Shown: positions 7,613 through 40,994 of the stretch, one piece after another
Layout of the letters: each line of letters opens with the position of its first letter
How positions within the stretch are numbered: position 1 is the stretch's first letter
Assembly: GCA_021804655.1 (NCBI GenBank)
Contig: JAJZHE010000003.1
Coordinates: 1 to 51,635, forward strand
From: Acidobacteriota bacterium
GTDB lineage: Bacteria; Acidobacteriota; Terriglobia; Terriglobales; Acidobacteriaceae
Direction of reading: 5' to 3'
DNA length: 51,635 nt
Notes under the pieces: model-generated
Told to the model about the DNA's origin: nothing
Databases searched by the model: none
Seen by the model: the letters and a program-made list of their open reading frames with translations, nothing else
Program-made: the position numbers and the translations under genes

Positions 7613-8182
7613 ATGTCGGGAATGAACGACAATTCGGGATCACAGAACTCCAGTTCAAAGAACTCCAGCTCAAAAAAATCCAGCTTGAAAAATTCCAGGT
7701 CGCTGCGGATCGTTGTCGCGGTCGTGGTGGTGCTGGGAACGATCGGCTATCTGGCCTACACCGGGCAGGCCTCGGCGAAGAGCTATTACGTCACCATTCC
7801 CGAGATGCAGAAGATGGGCGCAAAAGCCTATTCCAGCAATCTGCGCGTCGAGGGCTTCGTCAAACCGGAGACGATTCAGCAGGATGGCCCGAATGTTCGC
7901 TTTGTGCTCTCCGAATACGAGAGCCACAATCCCAAAGCACAGCAGAACCCGCGTCAGATCACGGTCGATTATCGCGGCAGCGAGCCGCCGCCGGACACGT
8001 TCAAAAACGATGCGCAGGCACTTGCCATCGGCACCTGGGGTCAGGATGGCGTCTTCCACGCCACGCAGTTGCAAGCCAAGTGCGCCTCAAAATATGCGCC
8101 TGCGCAGGGAGCTGCAACCTCCGGAGCCAAAGTCGCAACCAATGAAGCTCCCGTGGTTGCGCATGGCAACAGGACCAACTGA
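7613..8182 (+). CDS. ccmE: Cytochrome c maturation haem chaperone CcmE, Cys-type (189 aa)
   Basis: Periplasmic haem chaperone that receives haem from the CcmABCD complex and passes it to the cytochrome c ligase. A Lys/Ser/Asn-rich N-terminus (8-29), built of NSSSK-like units, precedes one membrane helix (LRIVVAVVVVLGTIGYLAY, 31-49). An OB-fold then follows (about 57-150): NLRVEGFVKPETI, VRFVLSEYE and ITVDYRG. The haem-binding site reads KCASKYAP, so it is C157-x-x-x-Y161 rather than the usual HxxxY. CxxxY CcmE proteins are known from archaea and some Desulfovibrio-type bacteria. The start at 7613 follows CAGGAG at a spacing of five; it opens the ccm operon. Confidence 0.9.
   Translation: MSGMNDNSGSQNSSSKNSSSKKSSLKNSRSLRIVVAVVVVLGTIGYLAYTGQASAKSYYVTIPEMQKMGAKAYSSNLRVEGFVKPETIQQDGPNVRFVLSEYESHNPKAQQNPRQITVDYRGSEPPPDTFKNDAQALAIGTWGQDGVFHATQLQAKCASKYAPAQGAATSGAKVATNEAPVVAHGNRTN
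7646..7705 (+). repeat. 15-bp tandem repeats inside ccmE
   Basis: Three units of 15 bases (7646-7660, 7661-7675, 7676-7690) and a decayed fourth, each built around AACTCCAG(T/C)TCAAA. They encode five-residue units (NSSSK, NSSSK, KSSLK, NSRS) just before the membrane helix of CcmE. Such a run can expand or contract by slippage and sets the length of the cytoplasmic, positively charged tail. Confidence 0.8.
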
Positions 8183-8195
8183 GCGACCTTTGCCC

Positions 8196-8900
8196 ATGCC
8201 TCCAGTGGACGACCGCAGCACGACCAGCTTTCGTCCAGCCGACGCTGCTCCTCTGGCACGTCTGACGGATATCTCGCGGCTCTTCGGATCGTTTGCCGCG
8301 CTTCGCCATCTCAGCTTTGATTTCCAGCCGGGCAAGTGTTACGTGCTGCTGGGGGAAAACGGCGCGGGCAAATCGACGCTGCTGCGCATTCTGGCCGGAT
8401 TGCTGCCGCCAAGCTATGGCGCCATTCACCTTTTCGGAACGCTCACACCGGCGGAAGCCTGCGGGCGCATTGGCTATATGAGCCATGCCCCGATGCTCTA
8501 TGACGAGCTGACGGGAATGGAGAACTTGCGCTACTTTGCCGCGCTGTATCCGCCGCATCAAGCGCTTGCTCCTGAGGTGGCACTGCGCCAGGTGGGGCTT
8601 GATCCGGCACTGCCGCGCACCGTCGGCAAGTACTCCCAGGGGATGCGACAGCGCGCTTCGCTGGCGCGTGTGTTGATGGCGCAGCCGGAGTTGCTGTTGC
8701 TGGATGAACCGTTTTCCAACATGGACGTCACCTCGGCGCACCAGATGGTTGCGCTGCTTGCGGGGCTGCGCACGGCTGAGCGTACGATCGTGCTGACGAC
8801 TCACCAGCGCGAACTGGCGCTGCCCATCGCAGACCATCTGCTGACGCTGCGCGAGGGCAGTCTGGATTCAGTGATCGACGGAGGCGCTGCCCGCGCATGA
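8196..8900 (+). CDS. ccmA: Haem exporter ATPase CcmA (234 aa)
   Basis: ATP-binding subunit of the CcmABCD complex, which drives release of haem-loaded CcmE from CcmC. Walker A is GENGAGKST (53-61), the signature loop is YSQGMRQR, Walker B is LLLLDEPF and the switch histidine is in TTHQR, all in the expected order. The length fits CcmA. Starts at 8163 (ATG, overlapping ccmE by 20 bases) and 8190 (TTG) are also open; none has a strong ribosome site, so translational coupling to ccmE is likely. It ends in a four-base ATGA overlap with ybaK. Confidence 0.9.
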   Translation: MPPVDDRSTTSFRPADAAPLARLTDISRLFGSFAALRHLSFDFQPGKCYVLLGENGAGKSTLLRILAGLLPPSYGAIHLFGTLTPAEACGRIGYMSHAPMLYDELTGMENLRYFAALYPPHQALAPEVALRQVGLDPALPRTVGKYSQGMRQRASLARVLMAQPELLLLDEPFSNMDVTSAHQMVALLAGLRTAERTIVLTTHQRELALPIADHLLTLREGSLDSVIDGGAARA

Positions 8901-9412
8901 ACGCCAACAAGACAAACGGCGCACGCTTCCTGGATTCTCTGGGCATTGCCTATGAGTTGCGCACCTATGAGGTCGATCCGGAAGACCTGAGCGCAACCAG
9001 CGTCGCGCGCAAGATCGGACTGCCCGCCGAGCAGGTCTTCAAAACACTGCTGACGACCGATGAGGCGGGAACCTATCTCTTCGCCGTCGTGCCTGGGGAT
9101 CAGGAGCTGGACTTCAAAAAACTGGCCCGCATCGCCGGAGTGCGTCGCGCGACCATGGTTCCGCTGAAAGACGTGCAGCCATTGACGGGCTACATGCGCG
9201 GCGGAGTGACGGTCTTCGGCGCAAAAAAAACGTACCCGGTCTTTGTGGATGAGGCGATCGTGCTCTTCGACCGCATCAGCGTCTCGGCGGGCCAGCGTGG
9301 AACGCAGATCCTGCTTTCTCCGGAAGATTACCTGCGTGCCGCCGAAGCCGTGGTTGCCGACTTGTGCAAAGAAGCAGTCCATCCGCAGGCGACGACCGGA
9401 GGCCGGCCATGA
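8897..9412 (+). CDS. ybaK: Cys-tRNA(Pro) deacylase YbaK/EbsC (171 aa)
   Basis: Editing-domain protein that hydrolyses cysteine wrongly attached to tRNA-Pro. The fold markers are ATSVARKIGLPAEQVFKTLL, where K49 is the conserved catalytic-site lysine, then VPGDQELDFKKLAR and GYMRGGVTVFGAKK, which match the YbaK/ProX domain over its full length. It overlaps ccmA by four bases upstream and ccmB by four bases downstream (ATGA at 9409-9412), so it is translationally embedded in the ccm operon. I know no direct role for YbaK in cytochrome c maturation; it may simply be co-transcribed. Confidence 0.9.
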   Translation: MNANKTNGARFLDSLGIAYELRTYEVDPEDLSATSVARKIGLPAEQVFKTLLTTDEAGTYLFAVVPGDQELDFKKLARIAGVRRATMVPLKDVQPLTGYMRGGVTVFGAKKTYPVFVDEAIVLFDRISVSAGQRGTQILLSPEDYLRAAEAVVADLCKEAVHPQATTGGRP

Positions 9413-10116
9413 TGCAGCCCGTTTCCGCGCAGCCTCGTGGCTGGTTTGAGCTGGTCCGCACGCATCTGCTCAAGGATCTGCGCATCGAGTGGCGATCCCG
9501 TGAAGCAATCCAGTCTATGCTGTTTTTTGCGCTGCTGGTCGTAGTGCTTTTCAGCATGGCGTTTGATCCCACCGCTGCGGCTTCGCGCGAAATTGCCGGC
9601 GGCGTGCTTTGCGTCGCCACCCTCTTTGCCAGCGTAAGCGCGCTGAACCAGGCATGGACACGGGAGATTCGCCATGAAGTGCTGGATGCGCTGCGCCTGA
9701 CTCCGGCGGATCGCTCGGCGATTTTTGTGGCCAAGGTGCTGGCCAACTTTTTCTTTGTCACCGTGGTGCAGATCCTGCTGGGTCCGGTGTTTTTCATCTT
9801 TTATAACCTGCGTCCGCTGGGCAACGGCTGGCTTCTGCTGGCTGTGATTCCGCTGGGGACGTGGGCGCTGGTGGCCAATGGCACTTTCTTTGCAGCGCTT
9901 TCCATCCGCAGCCGCAACCGCGAACTGCTGCTGCCGCTGATCCTGTTTCCCATCTTTCTGCCGGCTCTGCTGGCCATGGTGCTCGCGGTGAAGACCGTGC
10001 TGACCGGCGACGGCAGCGACCCACATCTGCTGTGGCTGAAGATGCTGGCCGGCTACGACATCATCTTCATGACCGTCAGTCTGCTGCTCTTCGATACCGT
10101 CCTGCAGGCTGAATAA
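9409..10116 (+). CDS. ccmB: Haem exporter membrane subunit CcmB (235 aa)
   Basis: Membrane partner of CcmA in the CcmABCD complex. It has about six hydrophobic helices, a cytoplasmic N-terminus with LLKDLRIEWRSREAI, and the SVSALNQAWTREIRHEVLDA stretch typical of CcmB. The length is close to that of other CcmB proteins (about 220 aa). The ATG at 9409 has a strong ribosome site (GGAGG, six bases away) and overlaps the ybaK stop. A gap of 65 bases separates it from ccmC. Confidence 0.88.
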   Translation: MMQPVSAQPRGWFELVRTHLLKDLRIEWRSREAIQSMLFFALLVVVLFSMAFDPTAAASREIAGGVLCVATLFASVSALNQAWTREIRHEVLDALRLTPADRSAIFVAKVLANFFFVTVVQILLGPVFFIFYNLRPLGNGWLLLAVIPLGTWALVANGTFFAALSIRSRNRELLLPLILFPIFLPALLAMVLAVKTVLTGDGSDPHLLWLKMLAGYDIIFMTVSLLLFDTVLQAE

Positions 10117-10181: not shown

Positions 10182-10889
10182 ATGAAACGACTTCTGCTTC
10201 TGCTTGCTTTCGCTGGCGTCGTCGCGCTGATGGCGTGGGGATTCAACCAGGCGATCTTCGTTGCACCCACGGAAGCCACCATGGGCGATGTGCAGCGCAT
10301 CTTCTACTATCACGTGCCCAACGCGATGCTGAGTTTTCTCTTCTTCGCTATCAGTTTTGTCGCCTCCATCCTGTTTCTGGCCTGGAAGAACAGCGCGCCG
10401 GAACGCGCACAGGCCGCCGATGCCTGGGCGCTGGCTTCGGCGGAGGTGGGTGTCGTCTTCTGCTCGGTGGTGCTGATCACCGGTCCGCTGTGGGCGCGGC
10501 CCGTCTGGGGCATCTGGTGGACATGGGACGCGCGTCTGACCACCACGCTGATTCTCTGGTTGATCTATGTCAGCTACCTGCTGTTGCGTCGTTTTGCGGA
10601 GGGCGCACAGATGCAGACCCTGGCCGCAGTACTTTCCATCTTCGGCGCGCTGGATGTGCCGATCGTTTATATGGCCAACCGCTGGTGGCGTACACAGCAC
10701 CCGGCGCCTGTCTTTGGCGGCGGACCGGACTCCGGCATCAAAGATCCGACGATGCTGGCGGCTTTTGGATGGAACGTCCTGGCCTGGGCCGCCTGGGGAT
10801 TGATGCTGCTGGCGTTTCGCGTTCACGTTGAACGGCGACAACAGCGCATTCGTCATCACCAAACCGTGGCCGCGCTGGCCGGAAAGTGA
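10182..10889 (+). CDS. ccmC: Haem-handling protein CcmC (235 aa)
   Basis: Six-helix membrane protein that binds haem and loads it on CcmE. The tryptophan-rich WWD signature is plain: WGIWWTWDARLTT (about 109-121). The two conserved haem-ligand histidines correspond to H44 in YYHVPNAM and H173 in NRWWRTQHP. The ATG at 10182 follows a weak AAAAG. It is the fourth ccm gene of the operon and is followed eight bases later by the ccmD candidate. No ccmF, ccmG or ccmH homologue occurs in the window. Confidence 0.93.
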   Translation: MKRLLLLLAFAGVVALMAWGFNQAIFVAPTEATMGDVQRIFYYHVPNAMLSFLFFAISFVASILFLAWKNSAPERAQAADAWALASAEVGVVFCSVVLITGPLWARPVWGIWWTWDARLTTTLILWLIYVSYLLLRRFAEGAQMQTLAAVLSIFGALDVPIVYMANRWWRTQHPAPVFGGGPDSGIKDPTMLAAFGWNVLAWAAWGLMLLAFRVHVERRQQRIRHHQTVAALAGK

Positions 10890-39973: not shown

Positions 39974-40450
39974 ATGCAGAAACACTCCCGACGCAACTTC
40001 CTCCTTCAATTGCCCACCGGTTTAGCCGCACTGACCATGGCTCTGCGCGCGCCGCAATCCATTGCACAGAGCGCAACAATCATCCCACATGCAGCGTTGA
40101 TCGAACCCGCTGAGGCAGCGGCCATGCTGGACAAACCCACTAACCATCGCTGGAAGATTCTGCAGGTCGGCTTTCACTCCATGTATGACCAAAAGCACAT
40201 TCGCGGCGCAGTGTACGCTGGCCCTGCTTCACGAGCCGAAGGATTGGCAACCCTGAAACAAGCTGTCGATTCTCTGCCGCGCACGACGCCCATTTTGCTG
40301 TATTGCGGGTGCTGTCCGTGGACGCATTGTCCAAATATCGCGCCGGCATGGGACGCGCTGCAAGCGATGCGCTTCCAGGCTGTGCGGGTGATTGAAATCA
40401 CGAACAACTTCGGCGATGACTGGGTCGCCAAGGGCTATCCGGTTGCGTGA
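39974..40450 (+). CDS. Tat-exported rhodanese-like protein (158 aa)
   Basis: A twin-arginine signal (HSRRNFLLQLPTGLAAL) is followed by a single rhodanese domain: FHSMYDQKHIRGAVYAGPAS, then the active loop LLYCGCCPWTHCPN. The catalytic cysteine should be C111; C113, C114 and C119 are extra cysteines in or beside the loop, which is rare. NNFGDDWVAKGYPV closes the domain. Rhodaneses move sulphane sulphur or sense redox state. It lies between a CRTAC1-like gene and a Tat TlpA gene, so a role in envelope thiol chemistry is plausible but not shown. Confidence 0.83.
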   Translation: MQKHSRRNFLLQLPTGLAALTMALRAPQSIAQSATIIPHAALIEPAEAAAMLDKPTNHRWKILQVGFHSMYDQKHIRGAVYAGPASRAEGLATLKQAVDSLPRTTPILLYCGCCPWTHCPNIAPAWDALQAMRFQAVRVIEITNNFGDDWVAKGYPVA

Positions 40451-40994
40451 CGAAGCCATCTCTGCCATACAGGACGCGCCAGAATACACATTGTCGCGAA
40501 GGCGTGTCCTGCTGGGTTTGGGAGCTTTTGCGGCCACAGCAGCCATCACTCCAGCCCGGGCGGTCATGCCTGTGTTGCATACACCCGCACCGGATTTTAC
40601 GCGTCCCGCCGTGCCCAGTCATCGACCGATCCGCCTCAGTGCTTTTCGCGGCAAGGTCGTGCTACTCAACTTCTGGGCAACCTGGTGCGGTCCCTGCCTG
40701 GCGGAGATTCCACGTCTCGCAAAATGGCAGAATCGTCTTGGAGCGCAAGGCTTGCAGGTGATCGGCGTCTCCATGGACGACGAAGAGGCGGATGTCGTCA
40801 AGTGGATTCAGAAGCTGAATCTTCCCTACCCGATCGTGATGAGCGATGCCAGGCTGAGTCTGCGCTACGGCGGCGTCCTGGGATTGCCCATGTCATTTTT
40901 GATTGATCGGCATGGGATGCTACGTCAACGCTTCGAGGGTCCATTGGACGCCTCACTGAGCAAGCACAGGCTGCCCCAACTGCTGCAAGAATAA
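40443..40994 (+). CDS. Tat-exported TlpA-family thiol-disulphide reductase (183 aa)
   Basis: Thioredoxin fold with the active site WCGPC (81-85), TlpA blocks (APDFTRP, LSAFRGKVVLLNFWATWC, VIGVSMDDEEADVVKWI) and the cis-proline in GLPMSFLIDRHG. The N-terminus contains a twin-arginine signal (SRRRVLLGLGAFAATAAITP). The start is uncertain: I chose TTG at 40443, which overlaps the rhodanese stop; an ATG at 40416 and a TTG near 40491 are alternatives. TlpA-like proteins keep cytochrome c apoprotein cysteines reduced; the ccm operon is 29 kb away. Confidence 0.88.
   Translation: MRDEAISAIQDAPEYTLSRRRVLLGLGAFAATAAITPARAVMPVLHTPAPDFTRPAVPSHRPIRLSAFRGKVVLLNFWATWCGPCLAEIPRLAKWQNRLGAQGLQVIGVSMDDEEADVVKWIQKLNLPYPIVMSDARLSLRYGGVLGLPMSFLIDRHGMLRQRFEGPLDASLSKHRLPQLLQE

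Follow-up and report, generated by a model that had tools for sequence, protein, structure and literature searches.

An acidobacterial CcmE with cysteine at the haem-binding position probably serves a System I split over two loci and equipped with a distinct type of CcmH

The CcmE protein encoded in a 51,635-nucleotide stretch of an acidobacterial genome (hereafter the window) has a cysteine at the position of the textbook haem-binding histidine, and we consider it highly probable that this Cys-type protein acts as haem chaperone in the periplasm for a System I that is complete in other respects and has its genes split over two loci. Most of the acidobacterial genomes that we read have the Cys form, and wherever both genes were read, the active site of CcmH separates the His from the Cys type without exception. 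A preliminary description made from the letters of the window had noted the CxxxY motif and taken it as a sign that a System I variant lacking CcmG and CcmH extends to this phylum. The observation itself was right, but the interpretation was mostly wrong.

Cys-type CcmE is already known from archaea, deltaproteobacteria, Chloroflexi and Firmicutes, and it was reportedly defined in 2006 as belonging to systems that have no CcmH. Of the present results, it is the CcmH split that deserves to be followed. By 2011, the rule that CxxxY goes with the absence of CcmH, on which the preliminary description relied, had been abandoned in the published literature. The accessible portion of the review in question (PMC3601427) assigns CcmE of this type to deltaproteobacteria, Chloroflexi and Firmicutes, with CPSKY as the motif in 25 of 36 cases, and states that about one third of the Cys-type bacteria have CcmH, that the absence of CcmH is not characteristic of the variant, and that bioinformatics gave no evidence of a compensating feature elsewhere in the machine. 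The same portion describes the Desulfovibrio system as functional in E. coli without CcmH and CcmG. Together with excerpts of a Methanosarcina study (PMC9084895), it reports that the CxxxY proteins of both organisms bind haem via that cysteine, and the latter excerpts add that CxxxY CcmE is required for haem attachment in Methanosarcina. For archaea, CcmH homologues are said in part of one paper to occur solely in Ferroglobus (PMC4429474), and part of another describes CcmH-like proteins of Geoglobus that carry LX[S,N]C[E,D,H]C, lack LRCXXC and flank a second CcmF (PMC4600277). Our picture of classical System I follows the available sections of PMC12285233 and PMC9616876. Among the papers listed in our searches of the open-access literature, we saw no biochemistry on any acidobacterial CcmE and no earlier report of a phylum-wide CcmE/CcmH pattern or of the CcmH split.

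Results

Cys157 lies at the haem-binding position of CcmE

The ccmE frame (Table 1) reads ...LQAKCASKYAP..., with Lys156 followed by Cys157 (codon 8081-8083) and, four residues further on, Tyr161 (codon 8093-8095). The protein scores 77.9 bits against PF03100, well above the Pfam cut-off of 24.6, which makes it a member of the CcmE family, and it has one predicted N-terminal helix (residues 28-55) followed by the set of strands of an OB-fold. Several comparisons agree on the placement of the cysteine. With phmmer, LQAKCASKYAP pairs with VLAKHDENYMP of the CcmE structure 1J6Q, although the match as a whole is weak (E 0.069), and an HMM alignment with proteins of both types puts Cys157 in the column of the His of HxxxY proteins. 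The top four Foldseek matches of the AlphaFold model are all CcmE structures, with Desulfovibrio vulgaris CcmE (2KCT) at rank 17; the mean pLDDT of the model is 66, so we trust its domain fold alone. Sequence comparison thus places Cys157 at the haem-binding position, as the preliminary description had proposed on the strength of the motif.

The site is invariant in 22 sequences, namely this one and 21 relatives at 57-87% identity. KCASKY is also present in all 80 related loci retrieved (the best 80 of 340), although this uniformity is not an unbiased count, since the retrieval used in part a pattern containing KCASKYAP. The nearest named records among these loci are Acidobacteria or members of that group. 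Because KCASKY recurs in the relatives and cysteine is found in 123 of 138 genomes of a Pfam-based draw (see below), Cys157 is not due to chance or a sequencing error. A second CcmE with HxxxY, which would have spoken against the preliminary description, did not turn up: the assembly (2.86 Mb in 245 contigs, 86.9% complete) contains one PF03100 match, the Cys-type CASKY protein, from which HxxxY is absent. At a completeness of 87%, a second CcmE may be missing from the assembly.

Table 1. Features of the window that bear on haem handling and thiol chemistry (positions in nucleotides).
Feature	Position	Strand	Basis or remark
ccmE, 189 aa, Cys-type haem chaperone	7613..8182	+	Pfam CcmE E 8.2e-22; ATG start at 7613, stop at 8182
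Haem site C157-A-S-K-Y161	8081..8095	+	Aligns with the haem-binding His in proteins of the HxxxY type
ccmA, ABC ATPase	8196..8900	+	Pfam ABC_tran E 2.5e-29
YbaK-like aminoacyl-tRNA editing domain gene	8897..9412	+	Pfam tRNA_edit E 1.2e-27
ccmB	9364..10116	+	Pfam CcmB E 8.4e-35; longest ORF, real start may be ATG 9409 or 9412
ccmC, tryptophan-rich WGIWWTWDARLT motif	10182..10889	+	Pfam Cytochrom_C_asm E 7.9e-31
ccmD-like ORF, 35 aa	10898..11005	+	ccmC is followed by a comparable ORF in 36 of 39 related loci
TlpA/ResA/DsbE-like thioredoxin-fold protein, WCGPC	40392..40994	+	Redoxin E 2.1e-22

The ccm operon in the window

The operon runs ccmE-ccmA-(ybaK)-ccmB-ccmC-ccmD-like, which bears out the earlier reading that ccmA, ccmB, ccmC and ccmD lie beside ccmE, with the short ccmD-like gene taken as the last of these. 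Some of the products stay below the cut-offs of the subfamily models: CcmA reaches 128 bits against TIGR01189 (ccmA, cut-off 131.6), with a drug-exporter model scoring slightly higher, also under its own cut-off, and CcmC matches TIGR01191 (ccmC) with an E-value of 2.6e-36, below the model cut-off. The CcmD-like ORF matches no Pfam or NCBIfam family. The arrangement is conserved, with ccmA following ccmE in 80 of 80 related loci. In 72 of these ccmE, ccmA and ccmB were all found, and in 69 of them ybaK separates ccmA from ccmB. The YbaK-like gene overlaps the listed reading frames of both its neighbours. Editing domains of this type are known to act on Cys-tRNA(Pro).

Neither ccmF nor ccmH was found in the window, and ccmF did not turn up in the stretches around ccmE of any of the 80 related loci. 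The statement that the window holds no ccmF, ccmG or ccmH thus stands for the first and last of these genes; as regards ccmG, the window does encode a TlpA/ResA/DsbE-like protein that is unlinked to the ccm genes. This protein matches the ResA and DsbE NCBIfam models under their cut-offs and is one of several candidates for the CcmG function.

CcmF, CcmH and their partners elsewhere in the genome

The window lacks ccmF and ccmH because the ccm genes are split over two separate loci. The genome search that the preliminary description had called for located both genes on another contig (C140), and the idea of a genome without CcmF and CcmH is thereby rejected. CcmF has 691 residues with Cytochrom_C_asm and CcmF_C domains, and the overlapping end of its gene leads into that of a 170-residue CcmH that matches PF03918 above the Pfam cut-off (E 7.5e-19). 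The active-site motif of this CcmH is MMCTCGCNQVLLECNHVGC and not LRCxxC. In CcmF, the tryptophan-rich segment reads WGGYWGWDPVEN, and an alignment of 10 sequences from Cys and His systems shows His182, His270, His312, His519 and most of WGGxWxWDPVEN to be invariant; we take the four conserved histidines to correspond to those that bind haem in the E. coli protein. A 97-residue ORF without a Pfam or NCBIfam match follows ccmH and may play the part of CcmI, and there is no ccmG beside ccmF on this contig.

Thiol proteins and potential clients are present as well. A 712-aa frame on contig C188 encodes a DsbD-type protein (DsbD_TM, E 5.1e-17), the genome encodes no fewer than three CxxC-containing proteins of the TlpA/ResA type, one of them in the window, and the cytochrome c domain PF13442 has 15 matches, 14 of which exceed the cut-off. 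A third Cytochrom_C_asm protein, on contig C95, is most likely HemX, because the adjoining genes read as hemA, hemC and hemD.

Cys-type CcmE predominates in the phylum

Our draw from the phylum comprised 297 genomes, with CcmE in 186 and CcmH in 146. The CcmE sequence was read in 138 of the 186 (48 unread) and that of CcmH in 120 of the 146 (26 unread; 107 readings were made first and 13 added later), and both genes were read in 101 genomes. The haem residue is Cys in 123 and His in 15 of the 138 CcmE genomes, and the tyrosine is present in every one of them. None of these genomes has both types, and the types sort by family: 53 of 57 families are Cys-only and four (f21, f25, f40 and f47) are His-only. 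The idea that CxxxY marks an outlier in the phylum was rejected on these counts.

All 15 His genomes have a CcmH match, as do 89 of the 123 with Cys, and we likewise rejected the equation of the Cys type with a lack of CcmH in this phylum. Among the matches listed, the 31 genomes of the window's own family all have CcmE and CcmH; the genomes listed first as lacking a match to one or the other belong to other families. For 20 of the 34 Cys genomes that lack a CcmH match, a CcmH HMM found nothing in stretches of 5-9.5 kb around ccmE. Such genomes may hold a diverged or distant copy, or CcmH may be dispensable in Cys-type systems. CcmH-plus and CcmH-minus versions of the Cys type seem to coexist in one phylum. 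As for the suggestion that the variant pathway extends to Acidobacteria, the occurrence of Cys-type CcmE is thereby borne out, and a system devoid of CcmH is contradicted, for this genome, by the CcmF and CcmH genes on C140.

The CcmH active site follows the type of CcmE

We sorted CcmH motifs into classes with regular expressions of our own definition. All 13 His genomes in which both genes were read have an RCxxC CcmH (RCPVCQ, RCLVCQN or RCPKCQ), compared with 0 of the 88 Cys genomes. The latter comprise 68 with C-x-C-x-C only, 14 with A/S-P-x-C only (IAPCCW or MSPxC where the CxxC region would be), five with both, and one (G017) with CxCxC and a second copy that carries LYCPVCPNTPLDVC. In the window's own family, C-x-C-x-C is found in 14 of 14 CcmH proteins and CNHxxC in 13 of 14. 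Some of the second copies that were read later do have an arginine before the cluster (RCICGC, RCVCSC, RCPCRC), with the spacing C-x-C and not C-x-x-C. Reading second copies moved two genomes (G187 and G191) from A/S-P-x-C only to both classes, without altering our assessment, and a diverged CxCxC copy may likewise be present in other genomes with A/S-P-x-C only or with no match.

What comes closest to an exception is the 'YCPVCPNTPLDVC' copy of G017, a genome that also has a CxCxC CcmH. Copies of this kind, found there and in G031, fit no motif class and have CxxC without the preceding arginine; CcmE was not found in G031. Both genomes belong to family f3 and share a gene set of CcmF, a thioredoxin-fold protein, the 'YCPVCPNTPLDVC' CcmH and a CcmI-like protein, which in G017 is a second set.

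In seven families (f15, f24, f29, f44, f46, f50 and f64), all of which are Cys-type by the CcmE sequences read, 23 genomes encode CcmF and CcmH in a single reading frame; complete frames have about 816-975 aa. Frames of 825-862 aa suggest the same sharing in three further genomes.

Outside the phylum, both genes were read in two related Bacillota plasmids and five Proteobacteria records only. The plasmids combine CPSKY CcmE with a CcmH that lacks RCxxC (HPPGCTDSMTADYC), and the Proteobacteria records combine HDExY CcmE with LRCxxC CcmH. Plasmids of Deinococcus and Iamia have CcmF and TlpA-like genes in the stretch retrieved, where CcmE and CcmH are unannotated and the CcmH HMM found nothing, and a Methylobacterium plasmid has His-CcmE with no CcmH in its stretch. 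A scan of viral contigs with CcmF gave no relative among 34 stretches, and a search of phage records gave one Salmonella record that led nowhere. In a Vitreoscilla filiformis plasmid, an LRCLVCQN CcmH region lies inside a 369-aa frame annotated as DsbE, so that CcmG and CcmH look fused.

The trees separate His and Cys systems once or twice

For CcmF, a tree of 97 rows (six plasmid references and 91 genomes, two of 93 having been dropped for a CcmF stretch under 250 aa) contains one change between His and Cys and one independent pair. Each genome was represented in this first tree by whichever CcmF was longest; in the case of G017 that was the second copy, which has a CcmH and a CcmI-like gene of its own. 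The program warned that long branches may have drawn the two His groups together falsely. When two long rows are removed and the second copy of G017 is left out, the tree contains two changes. A CcmE tree (136 rows after two short ones were dropped, no outside references, haem-site columns removed) contains one. With one or two deep splits and a single independent pair, the pattern shows co-inheritance and does not support repeated co-adaptation of CcmE and CcmH. It is fair to say that the types of CcmE, CcmF and CcmH are passed on jointly, as two, or perhaps three, old lineages. In family f21, CcmE (KHDENYMP) and CcmH (LRCLVCQN) look proteobacterial and CcmF groups with the proteobacterial references, which suggests that this family took over the whole Ccm set horizontally.

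Discussion

Our view of this CcmE as the chaperone of an otherwise complete machine is founded on observations: the genes and the Cys/Tyr site in the window, the presence of CcmF, CcmH and DsbD elsewhere in the genome, the cytochrome c domain clients and the pattern across the phylum. The steps of the haem path are drawn by analogy with studied systems, and what the CcmH cysteines would do is inferred. On that analogy, CcmC would present haem to CcmE, where Cys157 would take it up, most likely by forming a thioether with a vinyl group, while Tyr161 would serve as axial ligand. CcmAB would then use ATP, with the help of the CcmD-like peptide, to release holo-CcmE, which would pass its haem to CcmF. 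Attachment would be carried out by CcmF together with the variant CcmH (C-x-C-x-C...C-N-H-x-x-C in place of RCxxC) and the small CcmI-like protein, and the acceptors would be CxxCH apocytochromes maintained in the reduced state through DsbD and a thiol protein of the TlpA type. The parts given here to the 97-residue ORF, the CcmD-like peptide and the TlpA-type protein are putative.

Like System I* of Desulfovibrio and other bacteria, the system described here has a C-x-x-x-Y CcmE with the tyrosine four residues after the cysteine, CcmABC and CcmF, with CASKY in place of the common CPSKY, but it differs in that CcmH is present in the genome; Acidobacteria are not named in the host list in the available part of PMC3601427. 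With the archaeal systems, such as that of Methanosarcina, it shares CxxxY CcmE. Most of those lack CcmD, CcmH and CcmI, and CcmF is split in Methanosarcina, whereas this genome has a single CcmF, a CcmH and a ccmD-like gene and so does not fit the archaeal description of having no CcmD, CcmH or CcmI. The nearest printed parallel that we found to its CcmH variant is the set of CcmH-like proteins of Geoglobus, as described in the part of PMC4600277 available. The families CcmA-F and CcmH and the histidines and tryptophan-rich segment of CcmF are those of classical System I (E. coli, Cupriavidus). That system pairs His CcmE with LRCxxC CcmH (KHDENY and LRCLVC in Cupriavidus necator), in contrast to Cys and CxCxC here; HxxxY and LRCxxC are both absent from the proteins of this genome.

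The reading first put forward, a reduced System I without CcmG and CcmH as in archaea or Desulfovibrio, would account for the CxxxY motif and for a window in which ccmF, ccmG and ccmH are not next to ccmE, and the 34 of 123 Cys genomes without a CcmH match, 20 of them negative by HMM around ccmE, speak in its favour. It is nonetheless very improbable for this organism, in which CcmF and CcmH are encoded on C140, a ccmD-like gene is present and all 31 listed genomes of the same family have CcmH. Still harder to credit is a degenerate or misassembled CcmE with haem arriving by another route, such as System II. The third Cytochrom_C_asm protein could be taken as a trace of such a route, but its neighbours hemA, hemC and hemD point to HemX, and a haem site invariant in 21 relatives at 57-87% identity, within a conserved operon, is at odds with decay.

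The nature of the haem bond leaves more room for disagreement. By analogy with the studied proteins, the acidobacterial CcmE probably holds haem by Cys in place of the textbook His, and we infer that the attachment to Cys157 is covalent. Alternatively, Cys157 could be an axial ligand only, and CcmE a carrier without a covalent intermediate; non-covalent binding of ferric haem via its cysteine is reported for D. vulgaris CcmE in the available part of a review (PMC3884852). We think this unlikely, given that the product of the Desulfovibrio operon made in E. coli bound haem covalently (excerpt of PMC3601427) and that a haem-stained CcmE band of Methanosarcina was lost in a C120A variant (excerpt of PMC9084895), both proteins being from other phyla.

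Taking Cys157 as the residue that carries haem in a System I with CcmH, one may ask what the altered CcmH is for. A tentative answer, which we hold to be possible but rather doubtful, is that System I consists of two co-inherited lineages and that the altered CcmH of the Cys lineage is the compensating feature for which the 2011 review had no bioinformatic evidence. The His lineage would pair His-CcmE with RCxxC CcmH. The Cys lineage would either do without CcmH or have one, in some cases fused to CcmF, with C-x-C-x-C...C or A/S-P-x-C. Such a protein would then provide a thiol arrangement or a metal site for undoing the haem-cysteine thioether, where the classical CcmH faces a haem-histidine bond, its cysteines possibly compensating for the Cys-haem bond.

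The counts presented here, over one phylum, correct the expectation that a CxxxY CcmE means the absence of CcmH. With CcmH split along the same line as CcmE, exchanging the two proteins together, and not CcmE alone, becomes a direct test.
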